Assembly (NCBI GenBank): GCA_028679075.1
Contig: JAJRCF010000015.1
Span: forward strand, 1-64,000
Source of the DNA: Methanoregula sp.
GTDB taxonomy: Archaea > Halobacteriota > Methanomicrobia > Methanomicrobiales > Methanospirillaceae
Reading direction: 5' to 3'
Length of the DNA: 64,000 nt
Under the pieces are notes generated by a model, which saw nothing but the letters and a program-made list of their open reading frames with translations, was not told where the DNA came from and made no database searches. Each line of letters starts with the position of its first letter. The stretch's first letter is position 1. Shown here piece by piece: positions 4,791-38,098 of this stretch. The translations under genes were made by a program, and so were the position numbers.

Positions 4791-4875
4791 TGAGCCGGGA
4801 GCCTGTGCCCTGGAACGGAACTATTCCTGGTACAATGATCCCATTACCGGGACAGTCAGATCCTAAAACAGGAAC

Positions 4876-21768: not shown

Positions 21769-24555
21769 TTATTCGATAATAATCGACGGCTTGAACGGCA
21801 GCGCTGTCAGTGCCTTGACATGGCCGCTCGCTTCCGCCTCGACAATGTGGACCGGCACGCCGAACTCCTGCTCGAGGAAGCCCTTTGCGGACTCAAAGAC
21901 GTCCCGTTCGCTGATGGGGTCCTGCACGAGCGGACCGACCACGTAGGGCGGCAGGCGGTGGATGAGCGTCGTGATCTGCTTTGCTGCATCGGTGGCTTCC
22001 CTGCCGCGTTTCCGCATCTTCTCGTCTTTCATAATCTCCTTGACCACGCTGTTTTTGTCGCTTGCCTGTGCGATCGTGCGGAAGACTTCGTGCTTCCACT
22101 CGGGGGCAAGGGCGATCGTGATCGCCTTCGGGCTAATCTGGATCAGTTTTTTGATCGACTCGACATCCTCGACCGTGCGGGCGAGGAGTTCCTCGGAGAG
22201 CTCGGCCTTCTCGTTGACCTGCTGCGCATCCATCTTCGGCCACGGGGCAAACGAGATGAGGCCCTCACCCGCGAGTTCCTTCCAGAGGTGTTCGCCCGTG
22301 AACGGGATGAACGGGGCAAGGAGCCGGACCCAGACCGAGCAGAGCTCGTGGAGTTCCCTTGAGCCATCGCAGTCCTTCGGGAGGCGCCGGCGGTACCACT
22401 TCAGGTCGGTCTCGATCCCGAACCAGGCTTCCTGCAGGGCCTGCCGGGTCTGGAAGTTGTCGAGCGCTTCGGTGGTCTTTGCTATGTGCGACTGGAGCCG
22501 GCTCGCGAGCCAGCGGTCGATGTCGTGCGGCTCACCGGTTGCGTCCTTGATCTCCATCACCGTGTTGTGGAACCGCTCGATCTGCTTCTTTGTCGAGAGG
22601 ACGAGTTCGTTCCTCCAGTCAAAGTCCTGCCATGGTTCGGCGCTGCCCATCAGGAACATCCGGACGGTGTCGCCGCCGAATTCCTTGACGGCATCTTCGA
22701 GCAGGAAGACGTTGCCCTTGGACGAGGACATCTTCGCACCGTTCAACAGGCCCATGCCAAAGACGACCATGCCCTTTGGGAGCTTGTCCTTCTGCCCTGC
22801 AAAGACCGTGCAGTGGTGGAAGATCTGGAAGGTGAGGTGGTTCGATATAAGGTCCTTTGCCGAAAACCGGAAGTCGTACGGGTACCAGTACAGGAACTCT
22901 TCCCGCATCGCATCGAGCTTCTTCTTCTCGGGAAGGTCTTCGGACTTCTTCCCGAGGAAGATGTAATCGAAGACCGCGGGGGTGAGGAGCTTCGAGTCGA
23001 GATCCTTGATCCTGTGGGCGATGGTGTAATACGCCATGTACACGGTCGAGTCCGAGAGGGGCTCGATCAGCTGCTGCGTGTCCCACGGGAACTTCGTGCC
23101 AAGGCCGACACGCCGTGTGCAGGCCCAGTCCTTGAGCCAGTCGACCGTGCGGTCGAATTCGACCCTGACCTCGGGGGGGACAAGAGTCATGTCCTTGAGC
23201 TGGTCGGAGACTTCCTGCTTCCATGCGGGGTCGCTGTACTTCAGGAACCACTGGTCGTGGAGGATCTTCACCTTCACGCGGTTGCCGCACCGGCAGACCA
23301 CAGGCCGGACATCGAATTCGTACATCACGACCGAGTCGTACTTCTCGGTCATGAGGGCGGCGACATCGTCACGGGCAACCCGGACCGGCTTGCCGCCGTA
23401 CTTCTCGAAGAGTTTTCCCTTCGAGAACTCCGCGGAGTAGATCTCCTGCGTGAGTGCGTCCATCCGGCTGTCCATCTGGTTCTTGATGCCGGCCTTCTCG
23501 ACCGCGAACTGGGCCGGGACTTCGCCATAGCCTTCGACCCTGATGAGCGGGATCGGCTTGATGTCCTTGTACCTGCCGGCCTGCTGGAGGTCGCGGAGTG
23601 CGATGTAATCGAACGGGGCGTGGGCGGGGACGCTCATCACCATGCCGGTTGCCATGTCGGGGTCTACGAACTCGGCGGGCAGGATCGTGATCTCGCCGCA
23701 GAGCGGGTGGCTGACCTTCTTGTCCACGAGCTCGCTGCCCTTGATCTCTTCCCGGATCTCGACCGTGTGGTCCTGCAGGGCGAGCTTCTCTGCTGCTTCC
23801 TTGCTTACGATCCAGGCCTTGCCGTCCACCATTGCCTTCACGTAGGTGACGCTCGGGTTCGCCCAGAGGTTCGTGACCCCGTGGATCGTTTCGGGACGGA
23901 GCGTTGCGGTCGGGATAAACGCGTCGCCGTACCGGAACATGACGAGCGTGAACTTGATCACTTCGGCCTTGTCGCCTTCGAGCAGGTCATGGTCTCCGAC
24001 AGGGTTCTCGTCCACCGTGCAGTACCGCACCGGGTGGGCGCCCTTGATCACGTGCCCTGCTTCGTAGAGGTGCTTCCACTGCCACTCGATGAACTTCGAG
24101 TAGCTCGGGTCGACCGTGATGAACCGCCGGCGCCAGTCAATCGAGAGGCCGCAGGCAGTCATGACCCGCTGGTACTCGGCCGCGAAGTGCTTGACAATGG
24201 TCAGCGGGTCGACGAACTCGTCGAGCACATTCTGCGGTACGCGGTAGAGGTCCCGGTAGAGACGGATCGTCTTCTCGTCCTTCTTGGCGATCCGTTTCGA
24301 GATGCCGACAACGGGAGCGCCCGTGACGTGGAACGCCATCGGGAAGAGCACCTGCTTTCCCTTCATCCGCCAGAAACGTGCGACCACGTCCGGCACGATG
24401 TAGGTCCTGCCGTGCCCGACGTGCATGGCACCGCTCGGGTACGGGAACGCGACATTGATGTAGAATTTTTCCAGGCGGGACGGGTTGGACTCAAACGCAT
24501 GGGCCCACTTCTCGTGCGCCTCTTCTTCGAAGGCTGAAAGATCGAACTGACTCAC
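21769..24555 (-). CDS. leuS: Leucyl-tRNA synthetase (archaeal/eukaryotic type)
   Basis: A 928-residue class I aminoacyl-tRNA synthetase that charges tRNA-Leu. The HIGH motif is HVGH at residues 45-48 and the KMSKS motif is KMSSSKG near residue 605. Between them is the large CP1 editing domain (~190-400, with GTG-like TLRPETIHG and GYGEVPA). The C-terminal anticodon-binding and archaeal extension regions are complete. The start is GTG. It runs in the same direction as the PIN/KH ATPase upstream, 22 bases away, so the two may be co-transcribed. Confidence 0.97.
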
Positions 24556-24577
24556 TTACATGCACCATCCAAAAAAG

Positions 24578-26539
24578 TTATACCGGCCTTAACTTGATGA
24601 CCTCGTTGTTCGTGTGGCGCCGGATCATCTCCTGCGCAATGCTCGAATTCTTGGCAAGGTTGATCTCGCCCTGCTCGTTCACGGTTGCGGTGAAGAGGTA
24701 TTCCTTGCCGGCAAAGACGTCCACGATCTTGCCGCTTTCGCCCGGGGCAACGATCGTGAGCTGCTTCTTGTCGGTCTGGATTTTGATCCCGCCGCCGAGG
24801 TTGTACTCCTCCTCGCTCTTTGCCGGCTGGGCCTGCTGCCGGTCGAACTCGGAGCGGGGCTTGATGTCGATACCGATGCCGAGCTTGTTGACGATGGCAG
24901 AGATGTTCTTGCCGCCCTTGCCGATCGCGGCGGGGACGTCCTTGTCGTCAATGTAGACAACGGCTTTTGTGTCGGAGAGCATCTGGACGTCCACGAAGCC
25001 TTCCGTGTACCGCCCGATCTCGCGCTGGATCTCTTTCTCGTTGAGCTTCCACCCGGGCCGGTCGTCGCTCTCCTTCTTTACGGGTTCGGGTGGGGCCTGC
25101 GGGGCCCTCATGGGCTCGCGGGAATTGACCGGCTGGCCCACGTGCTGTACCTGGGGCGGTGCAGCCCGGGCTGCCGGTGCCGGGACCGTGATCCCAAGGA
25201 CCGGCATCACGATGGTCTCGCCATCGTACCGGAAGATGTCGAGGACGAGCTCGCCCGTCTCGTGGTCGGTGACCGTGGTAACGGGCCGGAGGTGCACCTC
25301 GCCGCCCATGCCCTCGGGGACCTTGATGGTGAACCCGACATCGTAGATTTTAGTGATGACGCCCTGTTTTAAGAAGATGATCGTGTTGACGACCTGCGAC
25401 AGGACCGAGAAGTCCACCCGGTCGGAAAACCGCTGGACCGCGTCCTGCACGCCGTTTGCGTGGATGACGCCGACCATGCCGAGGCCGGCAAGGCGCATAT
25501 CGGCAAAGACACTGAAGTCCTCGGCCTTCCGGAGCTCGTCGAAGATGACGAAGTCGGGGCGGACAAGCAGGAGGACATCGGCGGTATTTGCCATGCTGCC
25601 GTCAAGCATCGTGTACTGCGTGATCTGGTCCGGGACCTGGAGTTCCCGCGGGGCTTCCATGGTCTTGACCACGAAGCCGCTTTCGGAAAGGAAGGTCGCA
25701 ACGCTCTGGGCGAGCGTGGTCTTGCCGCCACCGGGAGCGCCGACAATGAGCATGCCCCGCTTCTCGCTCGTGATCCTCTTTGTTATGATGTCGGACTTCG
25801 TGTAGTCCTTCAAGGTTACGTCCACGATTGGGCGGACGGCGGTGATCTCCATGCCGTCAGAGAACGGGCGTCTCGCGATTGCGATCCGCATGGAGCCGAT
25901 CTGGACGACCGTGATGCCCCGTTTCTCGACTTCGATGAAGCCGTCGGGGTCACGCTTTGCCCGCTCAAGGATCTCCTGCGCCATCATCCGCAGTTCGTAC
26001 TCGCTTGTGGGAGCGTCGCGGATCTTCACGAGTTTCATGTCGTTGATGGAGCCCTTCTTTGCCATCGGGCTGATCCGTTCCTTGAGGTACACGGCGATCG
26101 TGTGCTCGTCAAAGAACTGGTCGATGGCGAGCGGGACAAAATCGGCGACCTGGGGTTTTAGGTAGATTACGTCAAGCCCCTTGGCCCGGGCCACTTCGGA
26201 TTGCACGTTGTCGCTCGTGATGAACCGTGCATTATTCTCAATCGCGATGTGTCTGATCATCGCATCGATCTCGCCGCCGCTTGCAAGTTTTACCTGCTCG
26301 AGCGTGGGGCGGACACCGGAGAATTTCAATTCGATAATCTTCTCTTCGGCCATCCTGGACAGTTGCTGCAGTTCGTTCAGGCCCGAGAACCCGATCTCGC
26401 GACCGTTATTTGCCTGGGCCTCGAGTTCTGCAATCACCGCTTCCGGGACGATTATTGTTGCACCTTTGTATTCACCGGCTTTTATCATCGAAGTTATGCG
26501 CCCGTCGATAAGGACGCTGGTATCTGGTACTAAAATCAT
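24578..26539 (-). CDS. PIN-domain / secretion-type ATPase / KH fusion protein (PINc-VapC ATPase)
   Basis: A 653-residue multidomain protein conserved in euryarchaea. Residues 1-135 are a PIN nuclease-like domain with the acidic residues D6 and SGGEIDAMIRH, SDN. Residues ~215-450 are a VirB11/PilT-type ATPase with Walker A GAPGGGKTT at ~265 and FVIFDELR (Walker B). A Pro-rich linker follows, then a KH domain with GKGG at ~530 and a small C-terminal domain. An RNA-directed role is inferred from PIN plus KH; the biochemical function is unsettled. The ATG follows GAGAGGA with good spacing. Confidence 0.9.
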   Translation of the reverse strand: MILVPDTSVLIDGRITSMIKAGEYKGATIIVPEAVIAELEAQANNGREIGFSGLNELQQLSRMAEEKIIELKFSGVRPTLEQVKLASGGEIDAMIRHIAIENNARFITSDNVQSEVARAKGLDVIYLKPQVADFVPLAIDQFFDEHTIAVYLKERISPMAKKGSINDMKLVKIRDAPTSEYELRMMAQEILERAKRDPDGFIEVEKRGITVVQIGSMRIAIARRPFSDGMEITAVRPIVDVTLKDYTKSDIITKRITSEKRGMLIVGAPGGGKTTLAQSVATFLSESGFVVKTMEAPRELQVPDQITQYTMLDGSMANTADVLLLVRPDFVIFDELRKAEDFSVFADMRLAGLGMVGVIHANGVQDAVQRFSDRVDFSVLSQVVNTIIFLKQGVITKIYDVGFTIKVPEGMGGEVHLRPVTTVTDHETGELVLDIFRYDGETIVMPVLGITVPAPAARAAPPQVQHVGQPVNSREPMRAPQAPPEPVKKESDDRPGWKLNEKEIQREIGRYTEGFVDVQMLSDTKAVVYIDDKDVPAAIGKGGKNISAIVNKLGIGIDIKPRSEFDRQQAQPAKSEEEYNLGGGIKIQTDKKQLTIVAPGESGKIVDVFAGKEYLFTATVNEQGEINLAKNSSIAQEMIRRHTNNEVIKLRPV

Positions 26540-26698
26540 ATGATATCCTCTCGTATGGTCTTCTATGGTATGCTATCATATTCGCTTCCGGGGACACAGC
26601 ACGCATCCCCATGCTGTTCTGCATCCCACGCTTATACGGCGTGGATGCACGGATATTCAACGATACGGGATCGTTGATAGTGTACTGTATGTGACCAG

Positions 26699-26712
26699 CA
26701 AGTTTATAAATA
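26699..26712 (+). promoter_or_regulatory. Orphan TATA box before a hairpin pair
   Basis: AAGTTTATAAATAG is a good archaeal TATA element, but no convincing reading frame follows. Initiation ~25 bases later would start just before the hairpin at 26750, so a small RNA is possible. Confidence 0.45.
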
Positions 26713-26716
26713 GTGA

Positions 26717-26770
26717 GGGATGGCACGGATGTGCCGTCCCGAACTACGAGAAGAACACGAAGTGTTCTTC
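26717..26770. repeat. Mini-hairpin array A
   Basis: Two adjacent stem-loops. The first is GGGATGGCAC-GGAT-GTGCCGTCCC (26717-26740, one G-T pair). The second is GAAGAACAC-GAA-GTGTTCTTC (26750-26770, nine perfect pairs). The second has the same 9-bp stem and GAA loop as a hairpin at 39439 but different stem bases. The gene-free gap is 26540-26871; beyond the hairpins it is a G-rich, A/T-poor stretch up to 26860 with nothing recognisable. Confidence 0.7.
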
Positions 26771-26871
26771 GAGTGGTGAGGGGGATGGGGGGATTGCGTG
26801 TGTGTGGGAAGGGCGGGTTAGGGAGAATGATGGAAGCGGGCTGAGGGGACGGAAATGAGTAAAAAATATAT

Positions 26872-27543
26872 TTATGGATTAATTGTCACACTTTTTTCTT
26901 TATACATTATAAAACCTAAAACCCGGTAACAAAATTTTATTTTTATTTTGTGCGTAGTCATTGGGAAATATTTTTCTTTGTCGTGAATTCTGAAACAGCA
27001 TATAATCCCTCCAAAACCTTCGATTTCCTGATCGATAATTTTCTCTTGACCGTTCTGAAAATTCTCCACGAAACCCCGAGAGCGACCTCGATCATTTACA
27101 AAAAAACTAGTTCTTAAGATTTGTAAGTCACCTACTGCCGGATAATCAATTGTTATAGAATGAAGAATAATTTTTAAAAAACCTTCTTTAGAAAAAAGTA
27201 TTTCAATTTCTCGTTCCTTCTCGTGACTTATATCTTTTACACCGTACCAATTCTCGAGATCAATTAATCCAATTTTTGGTGGATATATGATAATGTCCAA
27301 TCGTTGAGTTTGGTAAATTAATCCAAAAATTGAGAAAACTAATACGATGTAAACGATAATATCAAGATCAGCCTTTAGAAATGATAAAAAATCAAAAAAT
27401 TGTGCACCGATTCTTAAAAAAATAATGATAATTGAAATTCCGGAAAAAATTTTCGGAAAATTTTCATTAGACACAAGTTGGCAAATGGGATTACAAAAAT
27501 AATAGAACCATTTTTTAAAAAATTCGAGAATACCTTCAGACAA
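26872..27543 (-). CDS. AT-island protein 4: two-helix membrane protein, unknown
   Basis: A 223-residue protein, last of a four-gene AT-rich operon. Residues ~30-50 and ~60-80 are strongly hydrophobic and form two membrane helices; the following ~140 residues are beta-rich (KIILHSITIDYPAVGDLQIL, HKIKIKFCYRVLG) and probably one soluble domain. Translation begins at a TTG, overlapping the end of the previous gene by 8 bases, with AAAGGGG as ribosome-binding site. No known family is recognised. It may tether the soluble partners to the membrane; that is inference. Confidence 0.65.
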   Translation of the reverse strand: MSEGILEFFKKWFYYFCNPICQLVSNENFPKIFSGISIIIIFLRIGAQFFDFLSFLKADLDIIVYIVLVFSIFGLIYQTQRLDIIIYPPKIGLIDLENWYGVKDISHEKEREIEILFSKEGFLKIILHSITIDYPAVGDLQILRTSFFVNDRGRSRGFVENFQNGQEKIIDQEIEGFGGIICCFRIHDKEKYFPMTTHKIKIKFCYRVLGFIMYKEKSVTINP

Positions 27544-28129
27544 TTTCTAACCCCTTTAGAATTTTATCGAAAATACTCACGACTCTGTCAACTTGAATTT
27601 CAGGAATAATACTAATTTTCCCATCAGAAAAAATTTTAATAACCGCTCCAATTTGAAGATTCTGAATAGTATCTAAATAAACCACTACTTTTCGAATCTC
27701 ACCTTTTTCCATTATTAATTGATAGAATTCAGCATCATGAATGTCCGATCCTGATATTGTAATTTCTTCAAGAATCGGTCCATGGATAATGGCCTCCAAT
27801 TCGATGATTTGATACTCAGCCTTGATAATTTTTTTAAAATTCTCTGTTGAGATTACGACCGGGGTTATTGTGACATGCAGCGTGTCCGAAAAAAAAGAAA
27901 TAACATTCAAAATTTTTACTTTATCGAACGTGTTAATCAAGAGGAACGGTTGATCATTAATTTGTGAGATAACACATTTACCAAATTCTGAATTATTAAA
28001 AATAATGGATACTGAATTATTTTCTTGAATGAACGACATCGATGCATCTATTTCACTGCTTACTAATTTTTTATAGAAAATATTAAGGTTTTGTGAAAAA
28101 TTTTGGATTTTAAAAAAAGTAAAAAGCAT
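27536..28129 (-). CDS. AT-island protein 3: unknown, with shared C-terminal module
   Basis: A 197-residue soluble protein, no signal peptide. Residues ~40-110 alternate beta strands and helices (FLLINTFDKVKILNVISFFSD). The C-terminal ~60 residues (EKGEIRKVVVYL..., then IKIFSDGKISII, then a final helix) align with the same region in the two upstream gene products. It starts 10 bases after the preceding stop. Codon use is extremely A/T-rich compared with flanking genes, a mark of transfer. No family recognised. Confidence 0.65.
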   Translation of the reverse strand: MLFTFFKIQNFSQNLNIFYKKLVSSEIDASMSFIQENNSVSIIFNNSEFGKCVISQINDQPFLLINTFDKVKILNVISFFSDTLHVTITPVVISTENFKKIIKAEYQIIELEAIIHGPILEEITISGSDIHDAEFYQLIMEKGEIRKVVVYLDTIQNLQIGAVIKIFSDGKISIIPEIQVDRVVSIFDKILKGLEIV

Positions 28130-28139
28130 ATTCTATCTC

Positions 28140-28823
28140 TCAATAAACATATTCATCTAGAAGTCTAAAAACCTCTTCCCATTCAAGAGGATTCTTGGAA
28201 TTATTGTAGATCAGAAGATTACCATCTTTTGATACTTTAATTGATAATTCCTTATTTAATAGGATTTTTCCATTAAATGAAGTATTTTTTATCTGACCTT
28301 TATCAAATAGAACTTTTACTTCATTATCTCCTAATTCATCGGATCGAATATTGATATTAAATTTTTTTGATAACGCATTGATCACATAACTTCCAGCAGT
28401 TTTTATGATGCAATCATCGTATAATTTTGAATACTTATTTTCATCGATTCCAAATTTTTCAATCTGGCCTTTTCCAAATTCATTTAGTAGCACAGTTTTT
28501 GTCAATTGATCTGAATTTATTAATTCTATTATTGTATTTTCTTTCAATTCCTTAATTGAGAATTTTGCAAATGAAAATCGCTCAACTTCTTTTAAATCAA
28601 ATTTTAGTTTTGAATTTTTAAAGATGGGTACTTTTATCTCAGTTTTGTATTGACACAAAAAACTATAGATGGTACGATTATCTACTTGAGATGTCTCGTA
28701 AATCCCGTATTCATAAAAGTCAGTTTTAACAGGATAGTTTAAGCTATTGATGATTTTTTGCGCATCATTTTTTTTATTAATGCTGAACAATTTTATTGAA
28801 ATCATTCTCTCAGTAATTTCCAT
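28140..28823 (-). CDS. AT-island protein 2: unknown, with shared C-terminal module
   Basis: A 227-residue soluble, lysine- and asparagine-rich protein. Its ATG shares a base with the stop of the previous gene (TAATG), so it is translationally coupled. The C-terminal region (FDKGQIKNTSF..., IKVSKDGNLLIY, then LEWEEVFRLLDEYVY) matches the end of proteins 1 and 3 of this operon. No catalytic motif is seen. The N-terminal 150 residues look like an alternating alpha/beta fold I cannot name. Confidence 0.65.
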   Translation of the reverse strand: MEITERMISIKLFSINKKNDAQKIINSLNYPVKTDFYEYGIYETSQVDNRTIYSFLCQYKTEIKVPIFKNSKLKFDLKEVERFSFAKFSIKELKENTIIELINSDQLTKTVLLNEFGKGQIEKFGIDENKYSKLYDDCIIKTAGSYVINALSKKFNINIRSDELGDNEVKVLFDKGQIKNTSFNGKILLNKELSIKVSKDGNLLIYNNSKNPLEWEEVFRLLDEYVY

Positions 28824-29665
28824 TATTCATCCCCTCCAGTATCTTGGATATAAAAATTATAGAGATTTTCCATCTCTTCAAAAATGATTGGAAATAAACT
28901 AGAGTATTGCTGTTCAGTGATTTTTGGGGGGCGAGAAATTAAGTTAATTTTACCATTTCTGTAAATATATGTTTTAATCGCAAATCGGGAATGAAGAAAT
29001 ATACATTTGATATAATCCCGAAGACCTTCATCCTTTACTTGTTCATATAGGTGATCATCTGCGAGATCCCCAGATGATTTGAGATTAGCAGATTCCGATG
29101 TAGAATGAGTGGGCGACTGATCCAGATCTGTCACTTTCGTTCCTTCGATACTCAGTAATTTACATGAAGGAGGAAATTTATCACGATGGTTTTTTGAGTT
29201 TTCAATTAACCACCTAATAAAAAATTCTACGTTCGCAGAATTTGCATAATTCGGCGGTTGGAAATGCATATCCCCAACACAGGAATTAAGAATTGAAAGA
29301 ATTTTATGAACTTCAACAATACTCGAGTTGAAAATTATTAATGTACGTTTATGGTAATCGTATGTGATATCTAAATACATTGGCCTGTACTGAACGTCTT
29401 TTGAGAATCTGTCGATATCTTCATAATATTCTTGATAAACAGCTTGAATGCTTGTATGATTTATATCTCGGAAATAAAATTCCGGAATTGGCACCCCAAG
29501 GTTTTCTGTATCGATATTGATATTTCGAAATCCCTTTCGATTTTTTTTATTACCCGATTCAACAATTTTATGAGAATTGATGCAATCGATTATTGCAGTT
29601 TTTAATTCAGTCCCATTTAATTCGCTCTCTACTTTTAGGATATACGCTGCCTTCCCCCGACCCAT
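28823..29665 (-). CDS. AT-island protein 1: unknown, first gene of the operon
   Basis: A 280-residue soluble protein; ATG 29665 is preferred to a TTG at 29674 and lies ~30 bases from a TATA box, suggesting a leaderless message. Residues ~85-120 (RTLIIFNSSIVEVHKILSIL) resemble the equivalent part of protein 3. A Ser/Thr-rich hinge sits near residues 180-200. The last ~65 residues (KDEGLRDYIKCIFLHSRF, TYIYRNGKINLI, then a long helix) carry the module shared with proteins 2 and 3. No known family recognised. Confidence 0.65.
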   Translation of the reverse strand: MGRGKAAYILKVESELNGTELKTAIIDCINSHKIVESGNKKNRKGFRNINIDTENLGVPIPEFYFRDINHTSIQAVYQEYYEDIDRFSKDVQYRPMYLDITYDYHKRTLIIFNSSIVEVHKILSILNSCVGDMHFQPPNYANSANVEFFIRWLIENSKNHRDKFPPSCKLLSIEGTKVTDLDQSPTHSTSESANLKSSGDLADDHLYEQVKDEGLRDYIKCIFLHSRFAIKTYIYRNGKINLISRPPKITEQQYSSLFPIIFEEMENLYNFYIQDTGGDE

Positions 29666-29691
29666 AATAATCAATGAATATCATCTTATCA

Positions 29692-29704
29692 AATATAAAA
29701 TTAT
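29692..29704 (-). promoter_or_regulatory. TATA box of the AT-rich operon
   Basis: On the minus strand TAATTTTATATTT lies about 30 bases before the ATG at 29665. It is the only promoter-like element for the four overlapping genes. Confidence 0.5.
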
Positions 29705-29711
29705 TTTTAAT

Positions 29712-29738
29712 TACGTGTTTTTTCAATTGCGACACGTA
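29712..29738. promoter_or_regulatory. Palindrome upstream of the AT-rich operon
   Basis: TACGTGT - 13 bases - ACACGTA, seven perfect pairs, placed immediately upstream of the TATA box. It could be an activator or repressor site; it also marks the junction between AT-rich and GC-rich DNA. Confidence 0.4.
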
Positions 29739-29798
29739 GCGAGCCATTTGCGTATCCCCTCACCACAGCATTAATATCAAAAACCCCAACCCCTTCAT

Positions 29799-30121
29799 AT
29801 GGTATCGAACGTCTCGACCGTGCTGACCTTCGTCACCGCGCTGATCATCTCAACGGTCATCATTACTATATCGTAAAATTCTTCGGTGCAAAGGACAGCC
29901 TGACCACGGCAGTTCTCGCCGCATTGATCGGCACAGCCGTGTACACGATCTTTTATTACGTGCTGGGTCAGGGCCTGCTGCAGGTATTCATTGCCGGGAT
30001 CGTCTGGCTGCTGACATTGTTGCAGAAACTATACACGATCGGCTGGCTCCGGGCGCTGGTGATCGCGATCTTCATCTGGATCGTGACCTCCATTGTCGGG
30101 TGGTTCCTGTCGGTGCCGTGA
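29799..30121 (+). pseudogene. Frameshifted small membrane protein gene
   Basis: A start frame (MVSNVSTVLTFVTALIIST, from 29799) ends at a stop near 29873. In a second frame a matching continuation is open from 29867 (YIVKFFGAKDSLTTAVLAAL) to the stop at 30121. Joining the two across ~29866 with one added base gives a ~107-residue, four-helix membrane protein with a normal N-terminus. A single-base deletion, sequencing error or programmed frameshift would explain it. A TATA-like ATTAATATC lies ~27 bases before the ATG. No slippery run is obvious at the junction. Confidence 0.7.
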
Positions 30122-30179
30122 ACGGGGAAGTGTTTTGATCCATTCTCCGTTGATGTCCCGATACTCCCCCACTTTATGC

Positions 30180-30400
30180 AGCACCCTTGGACTTCTATCC
30201 CCCAGTGGTTCCTCTTCTCCGTCGGAGCATTCCCCCCATCCCCCAGTCTGACAACCCCTCCGGCACACCTCTCGACGTGAAAATGGCGTTCCAGATCAGC
30301 ACCCGGCCCCCTCGGCACGTCCTGCACCCAATTGGACTCCCTGTTCAGCCCATAGAACGCGAATACAGGCCTCTTTTCACTGGGTGAATTTTTGCAGATT
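30180..30400. repeat. Dispersed CT-rich intergenic repeat, copy 1
   Basis: This lies in the gene-free gap 30122-30969. Shared landmarks with copies at 36384 and 39370 are a CTCCGTCGGAG block (30219), CGACGTGAAAATGGCGTTCC (30277-30296) followed by a CCCGGC..CC stretch, and a CTTTTCACTGGGTGA tail replacing CTTTTTGCAGGGTGA of the others. This is the most diverged copy. The rest of the gap has short spurious frames only, ending in the short motif at 30911. Confidence 0.6.
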
Positions 30401-30910
30401 CCCCAACATAATCCGGCAGTCCGGTTTTGGGGAAGATCGTTCATTGTACTAGTGCTAAATATTGTCATTGTCCGGGTGCATTTTACCCTGATTTAAGGCA
30501 ATCCGGGAGGATTTTGGCGTTATCGAAAAACAATAGTGTCGTTTTTTCTGGAAACTATGTCACTGGGTCGGGAAAACAGGGTAAACGGGGACTGAAATGA
30601 GCCCGGATAGGAGCATGTCATAATCGGGGGGTCAAACAACGTCCCTCAACGGTGTGGCAACGCCCTCGTCACACCGGTCCTGCACTCCCCCTCACGATAG
30701 CAAGCCCCGACGGCCCCCCACCGATACAGGCATACCAGGGAGAAGAAACCGGAAGATATCCCGAAGATCTCCAGCGCTGCAGACTCCAACAGGATCTGAT
30801 CCTTCCGGACTTCTGTCTCTGGACCGTCATTGTTCTGTCCGGGCTCATCATCATCCATAGGATACCGTTCCCGCAGGTTTTCGTGAAGATTGTCATGACT
30901 GAAGGTTTTT

Positions 30911-30931
30911 TTTCACTCATCGCCGGGTTTA
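30911..30931 (+). promoter_or_regulatory. Recurrent motif TTTCACTCATCGC, copy 1
   Basis: TTTCACTCATCGCCGGGTTT preceded by eight T bases, 40 bases before the ATG at 30970. The same block recurs at 36313, 36945, 40064, 41421 and (weaker) 43999. Confidence 0.55.
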
Positions 30932-30969
30932 TCGTATCAGGTTAATAAAACCGGATATATGGTGATTGG

Positions 30970-33558
30970 ATGGAACCAGAAAAATCCCCTGCTCGTGGAA
31001 ACGCAGGTTCTTTTCATGTTACGCTGATTGTCGGATTTCTCTTTTTGCTCATAATGGTCATCCCCGTTAGTGCAACGGATGTCGCAATGTACCGGGGAAA
31101 CGAGCAGCATACCGGCGTCTATTCGACCGGCGGGATCGCGCCGGGGAACAATCTCCTCTGGAAAATACCGGTTGTCGACCCGACCGGTGATCCGGTCGTG
31201 AAGGACGGTATTGTGTATGTCGGAAACCTTAGTGGATCGCTCCTAGCCGCAAATGCATCAACCGGTAAGCTCGTCTGGAACGCCGCGGACCGGGACACGT
31301 GCGGGACGGGACAAGCTGCTCTCGGGACCTATTCCACACCCCTGGTGTGGAATGGTATGGTCTATTATCACTACCTGACACCCGGAGGTAACGAGAACAT
31401 CACGGTCAGGAATGCCCGTGACGGAAAACCGGCTGACGGGTCCTGCGGGGGCCATCCTTTAAGGATGTCCAACACCCGTCATGAGAATAATGTGCACTCG
31501 TCCCCGGTCCTGTATAATGCCAGCCGGAACCATATTGCGGTGGGAGCCGACGACGATGCAATCTGGGTCGGGGGCCCGGATATCGTCCCCTATGACTGGT
31601 TCTCCGATCTCAACGGGCCGATCCACACATCGCCCGCTCTCCATAACAACGTCCTCTTCTTCGGCGACGAGGTCGGGTATGTGTATGCCGCCCAGGCTTA
31701 TCATTTCACGAACTATAAACCGGTCTGGAAAGTGAAGATCGGCAATCAGATCCGTTCGTCACCGGCCGTTGCGAACGGCATTGTGTACGTCGGCAATGAG
31801 ACCGGCCTGCTTGCACTCAATGAGATGACCGGTACCGAGATCTGGTTCAATAGAATGGAAGGTGGCGTTATGTGGTCATCCCCTTCAGTAGCAAACGGCA
31901 TGGTCTATGCCATGAACGGCAACGGGACTGTCGATGCAATCGACTCTGCGGGCGGAACACGCATGTGGCGGAAGATTATCAAGGGTGCCTCGACTCCCAC
32001 TATCGCAGACGGTGTACTGTATCTCTGTATTTCCCAGCCGGGAGCTCTCGTAGCACTGGATCCCGGTACGGGAAACACGTTGTGGACATATCATTTACCG
32101 TCTGATATTGGTACCTTATCATCTCCGGTGATCGATCACGGTGTCGTCTATTTCACTGCGGAGTACGGGCCCCAGAACGGGTTCCTCTATGCGGTTGGAG
32201 GGCAGAAGCCACAGCCTCCGGTGATTGAATGGCAAAAGGCCTTTGGTGGTTCGAACGGTTATACACAGGGTGAATATGTTGTCCGTACTTCTGACAATGG
32301 AATAATTGTCGGGGGACAGACTTCCGCGTCCAATGGAGATCTTACGGGATTGGGATTCCATGGTCTCCAGGATATCGTGGTTGCAAAATACCGGGCAGAC
32401 AACTCCCTGCAATGGGCAAAATGTTATGGCGGCAGTGATGGAAGTTCTTCGCTGCAGCAGATACTGGAACTGGATGACGGGTATCTCCTGATTGGTAAGA
32501 CAAGGGCTACCAAGGATGATGTTGCAGGAGCAGGTCACCATGGTACCGATAATGATGATATCTGGCTTGTTAAAATTGATAAATCCGGTAATATCTCCCC
32601 CGGTTGGAGCAAATGTTTCGGGGGAACTCAGTCTGACGAACCAAAAGAAGCGATCCAGAATCTCGCGAAGGGATTCGTTATTACCGGGATAACCTCCTCA
32701 AATGATGGTGATTTCGCGGGTCTGAATCATGGCGGGGATTCCGGAACTTCTGATGCATTTTTCATGGTCCTTGATCAGCAAGGAAACATTGTTCAGTCCG
32801 GTGTCAGGTGTTTTGGAGGGAGTAAGAACGATGCCGCAGTTCAGCTGCTTCATGCGATAGATGGATCTGGGTTTTATGTCATCGGAACCACCGTATCGAA
32901 TGACGGGGATGTTGCCAATAAGAACCATGGCGGGGACTCCGGGACCGAGGATCTCTGGGTGTTTAAAGTCGATACCCTGGGAAACCTCCTGTGGTCATCG
33001 TGTTACGGAAGTACTGGCAATGAAGAGTCATCAGATATCCAGACTACTGCTGACGGGAATTATGTTCTCAGCGGCTGGACCGACTCAAAAGACGCTATCG
33101 ATCCACTTTTCCAGAATCACGGGAATGCCGGGACAAAAGACCTTTGGATATTAAAAATCGATCCCCGGGGCGGTCTTATCACATCCAGCCGCCACTGTTT
33201 CGGTGGGGCAAAAGACGACTGGGGAGCAAGCCTTCGCCCGATGATCAATGGCGTTATTGTCCTTGGAACTACCCGATCCAATGACGGGGATGTCAAGGGT
33301 ATGAATGCCGGGGGGGATACCGGAACGGCAGATCTTCTTTTAATGAAACTGGATCTGGCCGGCAATCCTGTATGGATATCAACCTACGGGGGATCCGGAG
33401 ATGATTTCGGGCACCAGTTCGGTATCCAGAACCAGCCGGATCCCGCTGTAGGTTATATTATCGGGACGACCACTTCGACTGAAATTCCGGGTTATCACGG
33501 AAGGGTTGACATGTGGATTGTAAAACTTCGTGCCAGTGCTGGAGATGAATTATGGTGA
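30970..33558 (+). CDS. Large secreted PQQ-like beta-propeller protein with C-terminal repeats
   Basis: An 862-residue exported protein. After the signal helix (residues ~18-36) residues ~40-415 form a PQQ-type propeller: VVKDGIVYVGNLSGSLLAAN, TGKLVWNA, VANGIVYVGNETGLLALN, TGNTLWTYH. Residues ~420-860 hold six ~65-75-residue repeats with DGDFAGLNHGGDSGT..D and W.KCFGG(T/S), giving a second propeller-like domain. No C-terminal anchor is seen. Enzymatic activity is not evident; such proteins in methanogens are often surface-exposed. It is followed by two more exported proteins in the same direction. Confidence 0.82.
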   Translation: MEPEKSPARGNAGSFHVTLIVGFLFLLIMVIPVSATDVAMYRGNEQHTGVYSTGGIAPGNNLLWKIPVVDPTGDPVVKDGIVYVGNLSGSLLAANASTGKLVWNAADRDTCGTGQAALGTYSTPLVWNGMVYYHYLTPGGNENITVRNARDGKPADGSCGGHPLRMSNTRHENNVHSSPVLYNASRNHIAVGADDDAIWVGGPDIVPYDWFSDLNGPIHTSPALHNNVLFFGDEVGYVYAAQAYHFTNYKPVWKVKIGNQIRSSPAVANGIVYVGNETGLLALNEMTGTEIWFNRMEGGVMWSSPSVANGMVYAMNGNGTVDAIDSAGGTRMWRKIIKGASTPTIADGVLYLCISQPGALVALDPGTGNTLWTYHLPSDIGTLSSPVIDHGVVYFTAEYGPQNGFLYAVGGQKPQPPVIEWQKAFGGSNGYTQGEYVVRTSDNGIIVGGQTSASNGDLTGLGFHGLQDIVVAKYRADNSLQWAKCYGGSDGSSSLQQILELDDGYLLIGKTRATKDDVAGAGHHGTDNDDIWLVKIDKSGNISPGWSKCFGGTQSDEPKEAIQNLAKGFVITGITSSNDGDFAGLNHGGDSGTSDAFFMVLDQQGNIVQSGVRCFGGSKNDAAVQLLHAIDGSGFYVIGTTVSNDGDVANKNHGGDSGTEDLWVFKVDTLGNLLWSSCYGSTGNEESSDIQTTADGNYVLSGWTDSKDAIDPLFQNHGNAGTKDLWILKIDPRGGLITSSRHCFGGAKDDWGASLRPMINGVIVLGTTRSNDGDVKGMNAGGDTGTADLLLMKLDLAGNPVWISTYGGSGDDFGHQFGIQNQPDPAVGYIIGTTTSTEIPGYHGRVDMWIVKLRASAGDELW

Positions 33559-37464: not shown

Positions 37465-37809
37465 TCACGCATATTCCCGGAGCAGCACCTTCACCACATC
37501 CACAAGCGGTGCGAGATCGTGCCGGCTCGTCTCCCAGATGATCGTCGGGCTTATCATAAAATAACCGTGCACCATCTTGTCCCGCATTCCCGCGAACTCT
37601 TTCCAGGGAACATCCGGGTGGCGATCGATAATCTCCTGAGGGATCTTTTTAATCGCCTCGCCAATCACGACAAAATTGAGAATGATCGCCTCGCGGGTTT
37701 TCCGGTCGGCAAGCAGTTGCTCGTATGTCATGTCCTTTGTGTAGGACTGGATCGTAGAGACTGCGTCGTCAATATCCGTGAGGTAGAGTTTCACCTCACG
37801 CTTAGACAT
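37465..37809 (-). CDS. hepT: HepT-like HEPN-domain RNase toxin
   Basis: A 114-residue all-helical protein of the HEPN/DUF86 family. The RX4-6H catalytic motif appears as RDKMVHGYF near residue 82, and the start MSKREVKLYLTDIDDAVSTI is typical. These toxins cleave RNA or are modified by a partner MNT nucleotidyltransferase. The gene overlaps the end of the MNT gene by 8 bases on the same strand, the classic arrangement. Confidence 0.9.
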   Translation of the reverse strand: MSKREVKLYLTDIDDAVSTIQSYTKDMTYEQLLADRKTREAIILNFVVIGEAIKKIPQEIIDRHPDVPWKEFAGMRDKMVHGYFMISPTIIWETSRHDLAPLVDVVKVLLREYA

Positions 37810-38098
37810 AGATGACCTCGGCGAGCACATCCTGACGGATCACCGGTTTTAAGGAATCGGATGTTACCAGATCCACCTGCTTCCCGAGTCTCTCAGAAAG
37901 GAAATTTTCAAGCCGCATGAATGTGACAAAACCCACCGGCTTTGAGAACTCCACCAGCAGATCAATATCGCTTTTGCCCGTCTGCTCATCGCGTGCAACG
38001 GAGCCAAACACCCCGATCGTCTTGACGGAATACTCATTCGTGACTTCCTCTTTGAGTTTTTTTAATGAGGAGAGAATATCCTGCCGGGTGGATTTCAT
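37802..38098 (-). CDS. mntA: MntA-like minimal nucleotidyltransferase antitoxin
   Basis: A 98-residue nucleotidyltransferase with the GSVARDEQTGKSDIDLLVEF signature at residues ~32-51 (GS x10 D x D). Such MNT proteins neutralise the HEPN toxin by adding nucleotides to it. First gene of the pair; an A/T-rich TATA-like stretch lies at about 38130-38148 on the minus strand. Complete and apparently intact. Confidence 0.9.
   Translation of the reverse strand: MKSTRQDILSSLKKLKEEVTNEYSVKTIGVFGSVARDEQTGKSDIDLLVEFSKPVGFVTFMRLENFLSERLGKQVDLVTSDSLKPVIRQDVLAEVIYV

Follow-up and report, generated by a model that had tools for sequence, protein, structure and literature searches.

A four-gene AT-rich operon at a variable, defence-associated site beside a PIN-domain ATPase gene in Methanoregula

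Introduction

The closest described counterparts of the locus reported here are the core defence hotspots cDHS1 and cDHS2 of Pseudomonas aeruginosa, which, in those parts of the report on which we draw, have fixed flanks, low GC (guanine plus cytosine) content and no single type of mobile element (PMC10250203), and the archaeal 'dark matter' islands, proposed in the portion of PMC4158269 used here as a source of new defence systems. Our subject is a site in the archaeal genus Methanoregula, seen in a 64,000-nucleotide stretch (hereafter the window; positions 1 to 64,000 of contig JAJRCF010000015.1, or C15) of the Methanoregula sp. genome GCA_028679075.1 (G000; 2.5 Mb in 40 contigs). There, an operon of four genes, A to D, rich in adenine plus thymine (AT), lies directly upstream of a PIN-domain ATPase gene and adjoins its promoter. 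In congeners, many of them represented by metagenome assemblies, the site holds AT-rich content that varies between genomes, and many of the alternative cassettes carry immune-type domains. The operon is very probably a horizontally exchanged cassette at a Methanoregula defence hotspot beside the PIN ATPase promoter. Because of this chromosomal address we read it as one more immune cassette and, by analogy with the neighbouring cassettes, it is probably an antiviral defence system. A literature search judged by titles found no description of the Methanoregula site, and the main text of PMC4158269 contains neither the word Methanoregula nor the word Methanomicrobiales.

AT-rich stretches upstream of the PIN gene

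The following features frame the site in the window.

24578..26539, minus strand: PIN-domain ATPase gene (Pfam PIN 4e-10, T2SSE 2e-9, KH_1 below cut-off), a conserved core gene and the marker of the hotspot
26540..26712, minus strand: PIN leader and core promoter, with the TTTATAAAC box and the TCAACG...CGTTGA repeat; conserved, the fixed left edge of the hotspot
26859..29748, no strand: AT-rich cassette of about 2.9 kb in its presumed extent, bounded on the left by the change in composition and on the right by the start, at 29749, of similarity to the G035 flank
29749..30122, plus strand: right flank, a small membrane-protein gene region common to G025 and G035

The PIN gene occurs in 34 of the 39 genomes of the genus and in all 23 of good quality. 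Its conserved leader, about 100-210 bases long, includes the TTATAAAC box and the TCAACG...CGTTGA repeat, and immediately beyond it the sequences diverge. Upstream contig sequence was taken from 31 other congeners and oriented alike; the counts concern the 28 genomes, window included, with at least 1200 bases, scored for a 500-base stretch under 36% GC (looser limit 40%) at distances measured from the PIN-gene start. Between 200 and 1200 bases upstream, 15 of the 28 genomes fall below 36% and 16 below 40%. In the 1-kb bins that follow upstream, the last covering 7.2-8.2 kb, the counts below 36% are 7/26, 6/25, 2/24, 0/23, 1/23, 0/23 and 1/7, while downstream of the PIN gene, in records that carry a name, none of the 14-20 genomes per bin has such a stretch in six 1-kb bins spanning 2.9-8.9 kb. 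Comparison of the first upstream bin with that at 4.2 kb yields a Fisher p of 2e-5, without correction for relatedness. When the dip is scored relative to its surroundings (12 points under local background, which was set at 0.52 for short stretches) the figures are 12/28 at the site, 0/23 farther out and 1/45 in more distant relatives. The latter, whose PIN proteins are less than 78% identical, show an AT-rich stretch in four of 45 cases, in three of which the whole locus is AT-rich.

The site is marked by a conserved core gene, and its content has lower GC than the chromosome. Large AT-rich cargo is present there on single-contig assemblies in four genomes (G037, G034, G021 and G018), which speaks against an assembly artefact. 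Two of the 15 genomes, G023 and G001, have an AT-rich stretch with no open reading frame (ORF) of 100 amino acids (aa), and G004, counted at the looser limit only, has an 85-aa remnant.

Cargo at the site

AT-rich ORFs of at least 150 aa lie at the site in 13 of the 28 genomes, window included. Pfam and PADLOC were run on 19 cargo proteins, 18 of them encoded in the twelve remaining genomes and one in G008, where the contig breaks off within the gene; the scan was confined to ORFs of at least 100 aa at the site itself, as distinct from smaller ORFs and from AT-rich ORFs farther out. The contents are listed by genome.

G025: HEC-01A/B (PADLOC E 4e-140, 3e-54)
G031: a different HEC-01 type (E 9e-157, 6e-76), then a 668-aa protein
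G030: Mrr plus sub-threshold nSTAND1, 940 aa
G028: NB-ARC plus TPR, sub-threshold Mrr, 915 aa
G034: CAP12/Pycsar TIR (8e-25) plus a transglutaminase-like protein
G008: zinc ribbon (below cut-off) plus Mrr
G037: HD-CE plus HATPase
G015: CoiA nuclease domain
G019: an orphan plus SLFN_AlbA_2
G018: Arf-like GTPase plus 8xMP
G021: zinc ribbon only
G035 and G006: no recognised domain

HEC-01 is the PADLOC name for an AAA ATPase and its partner, DUF4276 in one case. At E<=1e-3 PADLOC matched nine of the 19 cargo proteins as compared with none of ten control proteins (Fisher p 0.011), and nine of the 13 cassettes encode a nuclease, AAA/STAND-like, TIR, HATPase, Schlafen or GTPase-plus-8xMP protein. 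For the last few of these families, the label 'immune' is our assumption from general knowledge.

The 668-aa protein of G031 (L036 3008-5014), which follows the HEC-01 pair, has a sub-threshold HATPase match and no PADLOC match, and is a candidate defence gene in its own right. The AT-rich single-gene cassettes of G021, G035 and G006 (L033 6434-7201, L041 1156-1878 and L040 6488-7381, respectively), having no informative domain, are candidate new systems.

Cassette exchange and boundaries

Content differs between close relatives while the flanks are conserved. G021 and G018 share 99.5% identity over 204 leader bases and 94.4% over 2539 bases beyond the cargo, yet the stretches between these flanks, one of 0.9 kb with 31% GC and one of 1.4 kb with 28% GC, show chance-level nucleotide matches only (best E 0.04) and encode different Pfam domains. 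Similar cargo differences are found in the pairs G015/G035 (flank ~82%) and G023/G036 (flank ~87%). At the G021/G018 junctions no target duplication was seen by eye, and the window cassette contains no integrase and no tRNA, the window's only tRNA lying at 4874. In G030 an AT-rich DDE transposase gene (L035 6057-7109, Pfam 9e-17) is situated some 5 kb away from the PIN gene, outside the cassette. Recombination between shared flanks would be the simplest explanation of cassette exchange. A 15-mer at the hotspot edge was also considered as a repeated insertion target; it is single-copy in each of the 11 of 39 genomes that have it and, by position, always at the PIN site, and was therefore rejected.

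The left end of the window cassette (~26859) comes after a copy (26748-26772) of a genome-wide hairpin repeat. This dispersed repeat, GAGAAGAAC(2-12)GTTCTTCGA, has 47 exact-pattern copies in the window's genome, where the reversed control pattern has none. Its inner stem varies with pairing often kept (CCC/GGG, GCG/CGC; by eye), as in bacterial REP palindromes, and similar hairpins were seen by eye near the site in G034, G014 and G019. On the right, the small membrane-protein gene (29802-30122) occupies two frames in the window and is intact in G035 (L041); in G017 the second half of such a gene stands directly beside the PIN promoter, with another copy about 6 kb away.

The TCAACG...CGTTGA inverted repeat of the PIN leader is nearly invariant and close to the expected transcription start (window 26540-26712; L030-L044, L126-L138), with a variable GC-rich palindrome farther along. 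The repeat may serve as an operator or form an autoregulatory RNA hairpin; folding of the leader from 20 genomes gave one 6-pair hairpin, with no compensatory change or covariation. Elsewhere in the window (37465-38098) a HepT-like RNase gene (Pfam 2e-27) adjoins a nucleotidyltransferase gene (7e-16), the arrangement typical of HepT/MntA toxin-antitoxin pairs, and a further HepT-like gene (1e-27) lies near the hotspot in L032 (3956-4300).

Genes and signals of the operon

28823..29665, minus strand: gene A, 280 aa, orphan, no membrane segment; C-terminal block at residues 199-271
28140..28823, minus strand: gene B, 227 aa, orphan, no membrane segment; C-terminal block at residues 162-227
27536..28129, minus strand: gene C, 197 aa, orphan, no membrane segment; C-terminal block at residues 128-197
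26872..27543, minus strand: gene D, 223 aa, TTG start preceded by an AAAGGGG ribosome-binding-like site; two hydrophobic helices, then possibly a beta-rich domain
29691..29700, minus strand: archaeal-type TATA box (TTTTATATTT), 31 bases before the ATG of gene A
29712..29738, minus strand: 7-base inverted repeat TACGTGT...ACACGTA, upstream of the TATA box of gene A

The operon has a GC content of 27-34%, as against roughly 50-60% nearby, and third-position GC of 0.22-0.28, as against 0.81 and 0.86 in two genes leftward. At their own base composition, open frames of such length would arise by chance with a probability of 4e-8 to 1e-10 per gene; in all four the first codon position is highest in GC and in purine, and GGAGG- or AAAGGGG-like sites precede the starts of B and D. 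The distance between TATA box and ATG fits the expectation for a short-leader archaeal transcript, and gene A would have a short-leader or leaderless promoter. The TACGTGT...ACACGTA repeat is a candidate operator that may have arisen by chance. Terminator-like signals number 3, compared to 2.5 in shuffled sequences, and an Rfam scan of 24000-33000 returned two matches, both under the gathering cut-off. The first-pass annotation had described four minus-strand genes joined by a TAATG junction, a 10-base gap and an 8-base overlap; their positions and junctions are confirmed by the ORFs, as are its reported AT-richness, TATA box and upstream palindrome by composition and sequence.

Search for relatives

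The same annotation recognised no domain, and this is borne out: none of the four proteins has a match above the curated cut-off in Pfam or NCBIfam, nor any in PADLOC. In PHROGs the top match reaches E 0.16 and among PDB sequences E 0.024, and a weak resemblance of A to RdgC (NCBIfam E 0.002; score 17 bits, cut-off 227) was not used. Genomes were searched in overlapping samples, comprising 199 of the order and 383 of the phylum for A, 100 relatives and 383 of the phylum for B, and 294 of the phylum each for C and D. Beyond their own genome the proteins gave weak matches only (E 3e-4 to 0.09), which we take as chance since such values are expected across hundreds of genomes. The matches inspected by eye, a set leaving out L005-L007, L012, L014, L149, L165, L163 and L167, led to unrelated proteins (radical SAM, RecQ-like, LeuRS-like, tRNA-guanine transglycosylase-like, V-ATPase subunit and tetratricopeptide among them) or to places with no clear gene. 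Viral contigs and plasmids searched with all four proteins gave nothing, and nor did genome contigs and phages searched with A only, single-protein contig scans being able to detect close relatives only.

The operon matches no family in the libraries used, and no convincing relatives were found. The first-pass proposal to look for the same four genes in other genomes accordingly came to nothing, none of A to D having been found in those sampled. Its suggestion of recent acquisition gains support from the foreign composition, from the failure to find the genes in any other sampled genome and from the different AT-rich cargo at the site in relatives.

The shared C-terminal block

A, B and C have in common a C-terminal block whose likeness is modest and better than chance. 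C forms the bridge, there being no direct match between the C-termini of A and B, each of which pairs via C only. We considered whether the resemblance might be accidental, the outcome of AT-driven composition and a common strand-turn-strand-helix pattern in three unrelated orphans, a view compatible with every reading of function discussed below. It seems unlikely: the A-C and B-C matches exceed nearly all pairs among 27 proteins of similar composition, no triple in that set free of known homologues attains the summed A/B/C score, and the blocks occupy the same place, the C-terminus, in three consecutive genes. A profile of the block run against 232 genomes retrieved its own three sequences and three weak matches, two of which (L147 and L148) proved by eye to be a V-ATPase subunit and a repeat protein. 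An early idea that these C-termini are TBP-like was backed by no profile and was dropped.

Single-sequence AlphaFold models reached predicted local distance difference test (pLDDT) values of 36 for C and 41 for D, too low to use. The earlier claim of three paralogues is supported in part, by the sequence statistics of the common block, and gains nothing from structure. For the fourth protein, said to possess two membrane helices and a beta-rich domain, the two hydrophobic helices hold good, while the beta-rich part is seen in the low-confidence model only.

Function of the operon

Everything beyond an exchanged cassette we infer. In what we take to be the likeliest mechanism, offered tentatively, soluble sensors or adaptors would act with a two-helix membrane effector. 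A, B and C would assemble through their common C-terminal module, either among themselves or on the cytosolic domain of D; the differing N-terminal parts of the three would sense a viral cue; and D, anchored by its two membrane helices, would damage the membrane and stop the infected cell. The complex tethered by the fourth protein that the first-pass annotation envisaged would likewise be conjectural. Membrane damage is a usual output of small two-helix proteins in such operons. It is doubtful whether this amounts to a new archaeal immune type, in which three possible separate sensors would plug via a shared C-terminal docking module into a single two-helix effector, the whole being a swap-in cassette handed from one Methanoregula genome to another at a promoter-side slot, with no recombinase of its own.

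The address that leads us to an immune role might instead belong to a general landing spot for foreign DNA, with the operon as non-immune cargo, such as the remains of an integrated element or of a virus, or else a signalling or surface module associated with the membrane. Small orphan and membrane proteins abound in archaeal 'dark matter' islands, according to the part of the source drawn on, and many of these islands include mobile-element genes (PMC4158269); both the three cassettes with no recognised domain and the transposase gene outside the G030 cassette would suit such cargo. We nevertheless hold it to be somewhat unlikely, given that A to D show no integrase, transposase, capsid, replication or other mobile-gene match in profile and sequence libraries, that no viral or plasmid relative was found (phages searched with A only), that nine of the 13 cassettes carry immune-type domains and that all four genes are unbroken and closely coupled. 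Genes that are compact and overlap, a possible operator beside the promoter and a small membrane protein ending the operon would also be in keeping with a toxin-antitoxin or addiction cassette securing its own upkeep, D being the membrane toxin and one of A to C the antidote. This is improbable: it leaves three proteins with a common module unexplained, and no toxin-antitoxin model in Pfam, PADLOC or NCBIfam matched. Four genes of about 200-280 aa, moreover, exceed the usual size of a toxin-antitoxin pair.

The preferred reading, an immune cassette at a defence hotspot, has several observations weighing against it. Twelve or 13 of the 28 genomes have no AT-rich stretch at the site, and the insertion counts ignore kinship among genomes. 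At the 40% limit the outer upstream bins are less empty (9, 8, 5, 1, 3, 1 and 2 genomes in the same bins) and the downstream bins at 2.9-8.9 kb hold 0-2 of 14-20. The right flank is conserved within subsets of genomes only. The cargo and control samples are small; the ten controls were hand-picked from farther out in six of the same stretches and were neither AT-rich nor GC-matched, and one of the nine PADLOC matches is weak (mad8, 6e-4). Three of the 13 cassettes (window, G035 and G006) have no recognised domain and G021 has a zinc ribbon alone; the site may therefore also accept other genes. Lastly, PADLOC matches none of the four proteins A to D to a defence model, even with E values as high as 10 allowed; no catalytic motif was identified in them, and the effector role of D is a prediction. 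The original suggestion of a plausible undescribed defence system is all the same strengthened by the address, through the contrast between cargo and controls in PADLOC matches, and the operon counts as a good candidate for an immune system as yet undescribed. Adhesion or signalling, which the same annotation also named, may apply instead.

A single core-gene slot offers a simple route for collecting methanogen immune candidates, namely reading upstream of the PIN promoter in each genome. Several cassettes at the slot, that of the window included, have no informative domain, and the G021/G018 pair makes integrase-free exchange of defence genes directly testable in archaea.

Comparison with known systems

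HEC-01 shares the chromosomal slot with the operon (in G025 and G031), whereas A to D do not match the PADLOC HEC-01 models. The CBASS effector Cap15 consists of two membrane helices and a beta-barrel, a general layout that D may resemble with its two N-terminal membrane helices and possibly beta-rich domain. Unlike Cap15 and CBASS, A to D match no PADLOC model and no cyclase family (CD-NTase) in Pfam, PADLOC or NCBIfam.

As regards the site, likeness to the 'dark matter' islands, as portrayed in the part of PMC4158269 used, lies in orphan, fast-evolving and often membrane-associated genes; those islands differ in that many consist of or include mobile elements. With cDHS1 and cDHS2, according to the sections of PMC10250203 drawn on, it shares a conserved flanking gene at a fixed place, content that varies greatly, numerous defence systems, lower GC and the lack of any single mobile-element type. 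In the same sections cDHS1 has two conserved flanks and a length of 1-224 kb (median 26 kb), with transposases the commonest mobile gene. The Methanoregula site is unlike it in belonging to an archaeal genus, in having one genus-wide fixed flank and in holding AT-rich cassettes of about 1-4 kb, usually with one system; the window cassette has no mobile gene, unlike cDHS1 with its transposases. The Methanoregula site is of the same kind as the known core defence hotspots, yet compact, fixed genus-wide on one flank and usually home to one system per genome.
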